A stretch of DNA of 64,000 nucleotides, taken from the NCBI RefSeq assembly GCF_035920365.1, contig NZ_CP109150.1, positions 434,001 through 498,000 on the forward strand. The letters are read 5' to 3'. The translations under genes and the position numbers were made by a program. The notes below the pieces were generated by a model. It saw only the letters and a list, made by a program, of their open reading frames with translations. It ran no database searches and was not told where the DNA came from. The DNA comes from Micromonospora sp. NBC_01740. GTDB taxonomy: Bacteria > Actinomycetota > Actinomycetes > Mycobacteriales > Micromonosporaceae. Positions 24,971 through 58,605 of this stretch are shown in pieces (positions within the stretch are counted from its first letter, which is position 1; each line of letters opens with the position of its first letter).

Positions 24971-25033
24971 CGTTGATCATGAAGTTGTTGCCAGCGGAAA
25001 GCGCTTACAGCGGCAATAACTTCATGATCAACG
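24971..25033. repeat. Long palindromic repeat, 22-bp arms, GATC-type
   Basis: Arms 24971-24992 and 25012-25033 are reverse complements with one G-T wobble; the loop is 19 bases. Each arm begins CGTTGATCATGAAGTT or its complement. It sits between convergent genes, where it may also act as a terminator. Comparable palindromes lie at 53935-53982 and, inside a gene, at 58141-58201. AT-rich arms stand out from the GC-rich surroundings. Confidence 0.85.
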
Positions 25034-57066: not shown

Positions 57067-58605
57067 GTGGAGTTGGACTTCGAGCGGTGCTACCGGGCGG
57101 TCGACAGCCGCGACCAGCGGTTCGACGGCTGGTTCTACACCGGCGTCACGTCGACCGGGATCTACTGCCGGCCGTCCTGCCCGGCGACGACGCCGAAGCG
57201 GCAGAACGTCCGGTTCTTCCCCTCGGCCGCCGCCGCCCAGACGGCGGGGCTGCGCGCCTGCCGCCGCTGCCGGCCGGACGCCGCCCCGGGCTCCCCGCAG
57301 TGGGACGTACGGGCTGACGTCGTCGGTCGGGCCATGCGGCTGATCGCCGACGGGGTGGTGGACCGCGACGGCATCCCGGGGCTGGCCGCCCGGCTCGGCT
57401 ACACGGAACGGCACCTGCACCGGATGCTGCGGGCCGAGATGGGCGCCGGTCCCCTGGCCCTGGCCCGGGCGCAACGCGCGCAGACCGCCCGCACGCTGAT
57501 CGAGACCACCGGGCTGGGCATGGCGGAGGTCGCGTTCGCCGCCGGGTTCGGCAGCGTGCGGCAGTTCAACGACACGGTCCGGGAGGTGTTCGGGGCGGCC
57601 CCGTTCGAGCTGCGCACCGCCGGCCGCCGGTGCCCCGCGCCGGGCGGGGCGGGCACGATCACGCTGCGGCTCGCGTACCGCCCGCCGCTGCACGCGGAGG
57701 CGCTGCTGGACTTCCTCGCGCTGCGCGCGCTGCCCGGCGTCGAGGAGGTGCGCGACGGGACGTACCGGCGGGGCCTGCGGCTGCCGCACGGCGCGGGTGA
57801 GGCGGCCCTGACCCCGGCGGACGGGCACGTGACGGCGACGCTGCGGCTGACCGACATGCGCGACCTCGCCCCCGCCGTGGCCCGCTGCCGTCGCCTGCTC
57901 GACCTCGACGCCGACCCGACCGCCGTCGACGGCACGCTCGCCACCGACCCGGCGCTGGCCGGGGTGGTCGCCGCCGAGCCGGGCATCCGGCTCCCCCGCT
58001 CGGTCGACGGCTTCGAGATGGCCGTGCGCGCGGTCGTCGGCCAGCAGGTCTCCGTCCGCTCGGCCCGCACCACCCTCACCCGCCTCCTGGCACACCTCCG
58101 CCCGCCCGCCCGCCACACCCACACCCCCGGCCCCGCCGGCGTTGATCAAGAGGTTTCGACAGCCGGGGCGCGCTCTCGGGAGCCGAAACCTCTTGATCAA
58201 CTAGCCGAGGGGGCGGGGAGGGCGTGGCTGTCCGGTTTCCCCACCGCCGAGGAGGTGCTCGGGGTGCCGGACGAGGTGTTCGGGATGCCGGCAGGGAGGC
58301 GGGAGACGATTCGCGGGCTGGCCCGCGCCGTCGCCGACGGGTCGCTGGACCTGGCGCCGGGCGGGGACCGCGAGGAGACCGTCCGGCGGCTGCTGGCGCT
58401 GCCCGGGGTCGGGCCCTGGACGGCGGGCTACGTGGCCATGCGCGCCCTCGGCGACCCGGACGTCCTGCTCCCCACCGACCTCGCCGTACGCCGGGGCGCC
58501 GCCGCCCTCGGCCTCCCCGACGCCCCCACGACCCTCGACCCGTACGCCGACCGCTGGCGCCCCTGGCGCTCGTACGCGGTGATCCGACTCTGGAGAGCAG
58601 CATGA
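57067..58605 (+). CDS. Ada-AlkA fusion: methylphosphotriester/AraC domain plus 3-methyladenine DNA glycosylase
   Basis: A 512-residue DNA alkylation-repair protein. Residues 1-75 are the Ada zinc domain with four Cys in GIYCRPSCP and ACRRCRP, the first Cys being the methyl acceptor from phosphotriesters. Next is an AraC-type helix-turn-helix (LAARLGYTERHLHRML, VAFAAGFGSVRQFND). The rest is AlkA: an N-terminal domain, then helix-hairpin-helix LPGVGPWTAGYVAMRALG and PTDLAVRRG with the catalytic Asp. A palindromic element at 58141-58201 is read in frame between SVRSARTTLTRLLAHL and WLSGFPTAEEVL. GTG 57067 may be leaderless (CATCAT seven bases upstream). Its stop overlaps ogt. Confidence 0.93.
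   Translation: MELDFERCYRAVDSRDQRFDGWFYTGVTSTGIYCRPSCPATTPKRQNVRFFPSAAAAQTAGLRACRRCRPDAAPGSPQWDVRADVVGRAMRLIADGVVDRDGIPGLAARLGYTERHLHRMLRAEMGAGPLALARAQRAQTARTLIETTGLGMAEVAFAAGFGSVRQFNDTVREVFGAAPFELRTAGRRCPAPGGAGTITLRLAYRPPLHAEALLDFLALRALPGVEEVRDGTYRRGLRLPHGAGEAALTPADGHVTATLRLTDMRDLAPAVARCRRLLDLDADPTAVDGTLATDPALAGVVAAEPGIRLPRSVDGFEMAVRAVVGQQVSVRSARTTLTRLLAHLRPPARHTHTPGPAGVDQEVSTAGARSREPKPLDQLAEGAGRAWLSGFPTAEEVLGVPDEVFGMPAGRRETIRGLARAVADGSLDLAPGGDREETVRRLLALPGVGPWTAGYVAMRALGDPDVLLPTDLAVRRGAAALGLPDAPTTLDPYADRWRPWRSYAVIRLWRAA
58141..58201. repeat. Palindromic repeat inserted in frame in ada-alkA, 18-bp perfect arms
   Basis: GTTGATCAAGAGGTTTCG (58141-58158) and its exact complement (58184-58201) flank 25 bases that include a nested GCTC/GAGC hairpin. 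It has the same GTTGATCA end as the intergenic repeat at 24971 but lies inside coding sequence, translated as VDQEVSTAG...PKPLDQ. The AT content of the arms contrasts with the surrounding gene. Confidence 0.85.

Follow-up and report, generated by a model that had tools for sequence, protein, structure and literature searches.

A near-fixed-length hairpin repeat of Micromonospora, dispersed mostly near gene ends and present in an open frame within ada-alkA

Translated palindromic repeats have so far been known from Rickettsia and Wolbachia. The Rickettsia palindromic elements (RPEs) occur in intergenic DNA as well as in frame within conserved genes, where they are translated and tolerated; they are 105–146 bp long, have 12-bp terminal repeats, and nearly half of them were reported in ORFs (PMC2229807, PMC10969869). 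The stem-loop repeats Bor, Ype, Efa and REP cluster near gene 3' ends (PMC1590033), and the Correia/NEMIS elements and other bacterial MITEs are short, carry terminal inverted repeats and sometimes give rise to in-frame gene fusions (PMC2229807). Among the titles and abstract openings surveyed, no paper on translated palindromic repeats in Micromonospora was found.

The element described here is located in a 64,000-nucleotide stretch (the window, positions 434001–498000) of the 7.317-Mb genome of Micromonospora sp. NBC_01740, within a gene encoding an Ada-AlkA fusion protein (Table 1). The first-pass annotation of this DNA had reported a 61-bp element with an 18-bp perfect inverted repeat and GTTGATCA ends, read in frame without a stop inside coding sequence, and its position, length, ends and open reading were all reproduced: the element starts in codon phase 0 of this reading frame, and its predicted translation is VDQEVSTAGARSREPKPLDQ. 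Pairing is perfect in the outer 18 positions; extended to the outer 20, it covers 19. The RNA fold predicted for positions 58141–58202 has an energy of −39.1 kcal/mol (z −6.90), a value equalled by none of 200 shuffled sequences, and the pattern GTTGATCA...TGATCAAC is present twice in the window (0.00 expected). Comparison with Rfam gave only chance-level matches, far below the family cut-offs. A simple scan of this copy, which considers loops of 3–8 nt only and is blind to this hairpin, detected neither a sigma-70 promoter nor a U-tract terminator.

Table 1. Features of the window and related loci of the same genome.
Feature	Position	Strand	Remarks
Ada-AlkA fusion gene, 512 aa, holds the element	57067..58605	+	ORF; Pfam; E. 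coli structure matches
Palindromic element of 61 bp, subtype A (arms AAGAGGTTT, centre of GCGCTC type)	58141..58201	.	phase 0, residues 359-379
Left arm (18 nt), perfectly complementary to 58184-58201	58141..58158	+	
Element centre, contains GGGGCGCGCTCTCGGG	58159..58183	+	
Right arm, 18 nt	58184..58201	+	
C-rich flank, left side of alkA element	58111..58140	+	
G-rich flank, right side of alkA element	58202..58231	+	
Intergenic copy flanked by convergent genes, with arms of subtype C (ATGAAGTTGTTGCC) and an AGCGCT-type centre	24972..25032	.	orthologous site in 5 relatives
Family D loci, own genome	L017, L019, L020, L022, L023, L028, L104-L110		

The host protein matches the Pfam families Ada_Zn_binding, HTH_18 and AlkA_N; E. 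coli AlkA structures align on either side of the link that holds the element, and Ada structures align to the N-terminus. The link between the AlkA blocks (residues 341 and 391) is indeed longer than usual, although the earlier figure of about 40 residues was too low: it comprises 49 residues, compared with 16 in E. coli AlkA (138 to 155). Some other genera carry different repeats in the same linker (L238, L239, L243), and the linker therefore looks permissive. Since the element spans 61 bp from phase 0 and both of its arms are free of stops, such an insert could be translated and tolerated and, to judge from the open frame, the ada-alkA copy appears to be translated.

Like the RPEs, the repeat is dispersed over intergenic and coding DNA and lies in frame within a conserved gene. 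In contrast to them, it is 61 bp long in all exact copies of its own genome and 60–62 bp in most of the copies listed elsewhere, with arms of 18–20 bp; only one of 41 loci in its own genome is intragenic (one more overlaps a gene end), as are six of 127 in the genus sample (131 less 4 judged non-elements on inspection); and one and the same gene is reused across the genus, with subtypes switching at a fixed site. The proposed likeness to RPEs thus holds for the dispersed, mostly intergenic distribution and the in-frame copy, and breaks down over the rarity of intragenic copies and the changing sequence at alkA. Because both length and ORF share disagree, we did not classify the element as an RPE. 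The protein-coding palindromic repeats of Wolbachia (cited in PMC2229807) are, by their name, likewise translated palindromic repeats.

The genome was searched with the pattern GTTGATCA-N31 to 61-TGATCAAC, which permits total lengths of 47–77 bp. This revealed 23 exact copies, each of 61 bp; the possibility, raised previously, that the inverted repeat occurs nowhere else in the genome was thereby removed. A control with the reversed pattern gave 0 matches in this genome and 0 in every row of the family genomes. With relaxed (TGATCA) ends, 59 places were found, some of them non-palindromic chance matches. An intergenic repeat noted before at 24971–25033 is present, although its true span is one base shorter on each side (Table 1). 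When this genome was examined for a longer parent element, 48 of 49 exact arms paired at 61-bp spacing, which speaks against one with these ends.

The family is widely distributed. At least one match to the pattern with exact ends was detected in 204 of 354 genomes of Micromonosporaceae (24 of 44 genera), with 0 to 121 copies per genome, and in 38 of the 150 genomes sampled from the order. Genomes with one or two matches often represent chance coding matches, and some single matches are clearly non-palindromic; high numbers were nevertheless observed outside the family (46 copies in G372, 38 in G364, 27 in G425). The centre CGACACGCCG was found again in G372, G435 and G441, which belong to three families of the order. 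In a public scan that gave at least 120 records, all the matches listed were from Micromonospora, Verrucosispora or another member of the Micromonosporaceae. Loci L111–L230 were gathered at a fixed length of 61 bp, which biases their length statistics and leaves the own-genome and family counts unaffected. One genome, G225, contains 89 copies, of which the listed ones are near-identical and 64 bp long; at four of its five loci L261, L264, L267, L270 and L273 the left flank ends with AATTCGC and the right one begins with GCGAAT, a picture like that left by a recent burst. The search with relaxed ends in the host genome also brought out another palindrome family, D (arms TGATCAGGACGCCATGGAC), which has a 57-bp core, as in the first family, and lies mostly farther from genes.

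The intergenic copies showed a pronounced preference for gene ends. Their median distance from a stop codon was 30 nt (at most 100 nt for 134 of 148 distances), 52 of the 101 placed copies lay between convergent genes as against 77 of 394 background gaps (p 8e-13), and only 5 of the 101 lay between divergent genes as against 119 of 394 (p 2e-10). Genes were called with a codon model, and the background gaps (at least 90 bp) include some that hold an element. A C-rich left border and a G-rich right border were seen with 28 of the 29 own copies of subtypes A, B and C and with 8 of the 13 own copies of family D; the figures were 103 of 110 for the copies from the genus, 28 of 30 for other copies and 85 of 86 for those in alkA. 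The opposite skew (G left, C right) was found in none. Among gaps free of the element, the same arrangement was seen in 5 of 36 convergent ones (reverse in 9) and 60 of 238 others (reverse in 39). It was also present in 45 of 63 alkA linkers without the element (reverse in 1).

A position just after stop codons, with convergent genes favoured, is that expected of a transcription terminator, and the stem-loop repeats REP, Bor, Ype and Efa also favour the 3' ends of genes (PMC1590033). The present element differs from the latter in being one longer hairpin with constant ends, changing arms and no link to RAYT. A REP whose movement depends on a RAYT (Y1 transposase), or an attC site of the integron type, is highly improbable, even though the element is a short palindromic repeat near gene ends and Y1_Tnp is present in G138 (9), G146 and G155, three high-copy genomes among those tested. 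This domain was detected in 7 of 30 chosen genomes and does not follow copy number: it was missing in the high-copy genomes G055, G041, G106, G058, G225, G285 and G320, and present in G006, G158 and G260, which have no or few copies; mobilization by a RAYT is not supported. Moreover, the element is 60–62 bp long as against 20–40 bp for REPs, according to PMC3733652, a treatment of REP superfamilies in which neither Micromonospora nor GATC is mentioned.

An Ada-AlkA protein match, in some cases partial or weak, was obtained in all 151 sampled genomes of the genus. The linker was parsed for the alkA tree in 157 of 160 loci (not in L346, L355 and L356), including 135 from the genus, 16 of whose 151 genomes were not parsed; the parser accepts open frames only, so that all of these linkers are open, and the listed alkA matches of relatives contain no stops. 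Among the 135 genus linkers, 82 carry the element at the same place, 8 contain remnants and 45 have none, compared with 2 element-bearing rows of 22 outside the genus. Copies were required to have GATC at both ends, and those of the L065 and L307 type were thus counted as absent or as remnants; L331 and L241 were assigned to the absent class by hand. The insertion is therefore not private to the host, as a first look at this gene might have suggested, and it is also not the case that all homologues carry an equivalent segment devoid of the palindrome. Within the clade of the host, L342 lacks the element and L065 has a decayed one. Eight genomes of the genus (5.1–5.9 Mb) with no exact copy at all have short alkA linkers.

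The alkA copies fall into three subtypes: A (arms AAGARGTT, centre often with AGCGCT), B (arms ATGAGGTTGACGG, centre GATCTC or GAGATC, i.e. either orientation) and C (arms ATGAAGTTGTTG, centre GGCGTGTC). These alternate on the alkA tree, with minimum numbers of changes of 8 for B-reverse, 8 for C, 6 for A with its centre and 5 for B-forward (counted from starred branches of a quick tree that was built with the linker left out, has SH-aLRT support only and leaves many forks open). Sisters of differing subtype include L321/L328 (support 99), L085/L284 (98) and L306/L311 (92). In the first of these pairs (B and C, respectively) the interiors of the elements differ, and the adjoining 20 bases on the right are identical; the linker on the left differs too, so the exchanged tract may extend further on that side.

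Switching was also observed between genes. In 28 of 62 comparable orthologous intergenic pairs the arm subtype differed, with core spans of 55/55 in 60 pairs and 55/54 in the other two (in three further pairs the second copy was not intact), and the centre motif was inverted in 5 of 29 pairs. Arms and centres combine more freely here than in alkA: the C arms of the host genome occur with three centres (CGACACGCCG, AGCGCT and GATCTCC). The site orthologous to window position 24972 is occupied in G125, G086 and G095 by versions whose arms differ and is empty in G025; in G130 it holds a D element with a further palindrome (GATCTTGCACTTTGTG ... CACAAAGTGCAAGATC on the reverse strand of L399, near the D element). 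Among 77 orthologous pairs, some of which involve overlapping loci (L006, L007), a gap of at least 40 was seen in none, and a recognised element was missing in 5; empty sites are under-sampled, as the loci were fetched because they hold an element.

Repeated insertion of a MITE-like mobile repeat at hairpin-prone C/G junctions, with a transposase acting in trans and each change of subtype reflecting loss followed by a new insertion, would agree with the great variation in copy number, the many near-identical copies in G225, and the empty and differently occupied versions of the site at 24972. We nevertheless consider it rather improbable. The element differs from Correia/NEMIS-type MITEs in that the arms in the host genome pair at one spacing and reveal no longer element with these ends, and in that no target duplication was found, the only empty orthologous site (G025) being too different in length to be read. 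In addition, a new insertion would seldom restore the neighbouring DNA in the way seen in L321/L328.

Within alkA, the letters of the arms have changed in a coordinated manner. Both-side changes were found in 12 of 20 arm pairs (shuffle mean 9.2; 12 reached in 5 of 500), and the covariation score was 0.243, compared with 0.099 for shuffles (reached in 0 of 500) and at most 0.089 for slid pairings; columns 4–7 and 55–58 are invariant by construction, as GATC ends were demanded at collection. Pair 9/53 is U-A in 56, A-U in 20 and something else in 4 of the 80 rows, and pair 12/50 is a G-U wobble in 10 of 80. The hairpin is thus maintained within the coding sequence while its letters change. The paired changes also speak, together with the wobble intermediates, for a single old insertion that was inherited, with the hairpin selected as an RNA or DNA structure, arms altered by paired point mutations, several lineage losses and convergent subtypes. 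The free combination of intergenic arms and centres and the mostly filled orthologous sites (in a sample biased to filled ones) point the same way. Such a history is still unlikely: no alkA row joins A arms to a C-type centre or the reverse (labels being assigned by pattern), pair 9/53 has swapped from U-A to A-U with few other combinations, and the centre motifs recur across genera and families.

In a nearest-copy test, the alkA element of seven out of eight genomes was closer to the alkA element of another species than to the intergenic copies used from its own genome, which argues against conversion from copies of the same genome as a general rule and favours allele exchange between strains or an old shared polymorphism. 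Exchange within the genome fits G050 alone, where the copy closest to the alkA element is an intergenic one from that genome (33 vs 30). Homologous recombination of alkA alleles between species, which would carry the element along and involve nothing specific to it, is accordingly a serious rival for the alkA site, and the similarity of subtype C centres in alkA across clades is in line with it. We regard it as possible, though not as the probable explanation. By itself it accounts neither for the intergenic switching nor for the identity to the right of the element in L321/L328, and it leaves unexplained that intergenic copies resemble those of their own genome (for 89 of 100 typed copies from eight genomes, the score against the nearest same-genome copy exceeded the mean of the scores against the nearest copy of each of the seven other genomes).

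The reading we prefer, with a probability of roughly 0.55, is that the repeat is non-autonomous, forms a hairpin, probably serves at transcript ends and is replaced as a cassette, the permissive alkA linker hosting one copy of it. The element, mostly 60–62 bp long, would combine constant ends (GTTGATCA...TGATCAAC) with complementary yet variable arms and a centre drawn from a few motifs. Its position past stop codons at C-rich/G-rich junctions suggests that the intergenic form probably acts as a hairpin ending transcripts in both directions. A site would be kept for a long time, while the part between the ends may be replaced by exchange, either with other copies of the genome or between strains at the corresponding locus; this replacement is deduced from comparison of present-day copies. 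The ada-alkA linker, C-rich and then G-rich as at the intergenic sites, would tolerate the approximately 20 extra residues. Two observations fit this reading poorly: within-genome exchange suits G050 alone among the eight genomes of the nearest-copy test, and a given type of arm is not always joined to one type of centre, as the three kinds of centre between intergenic C arms demonstrate. A bolder version is doubtful: the elements would be exchangeable and invertible cassettes, and an enzyme of host or mobile origin would recognise their GTTGATCA ends, perhaps also the centre (e.g. CGACACGCCG), and swap or flip the interior among sites. Arms and centre would then vary at unaltered length and pairing, also where the element lies in a translated gene.

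The genus offers a natural experiment, in which a single in-gene site can be compared in more than 100 species as empty, occupied by several subtypes or decayed. This makes it possible to test the in-place replacement of short repeats at constant length, as well as the tolerance of a protein for some 20 residues whose identity is set by a DNA hairpin. The element may also explain why many gene ends in Micromonosporaceae carry a structured repeat.

Several further observations were made. The intragenic copies of the genus sample comprise four in alkA, one in L202 at the end of a purB-like frame, and one in L198 (901–961, Verrucosispora sediminis), which is read in another phase within a loop of a predicted multi-pass membrane protein. 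The window contains 10 GTTGATCA sites in total (0.31 expected), six of which (3636, 18291, 23448, 34718, 37199 and 38261) are single and have no partner at 61 bp; these may be halves of the element or copies that have decayed. A motif pair of PE-PGRS genes, GATCA(N)33TGATC (PMC5217627), was considered and set aside, as it looks like a different, protein-related motif. Other long palindromes of 61–67 bp, with arms like TGCTCTGCATCCA or CTGCTTCAACCCA, occur at L004 1720, L230 7639 and L156 5963 and may represent a further family. Finally, a less perfect copy in G028 (L377, 1501–1561) opens a frame read as glnD (LIKKNASGHADDGDANLLIN); similar copies were found in G030, G056, G122, G105, G050, G032 and G044, and the glnD frame is possibly a second translated site.
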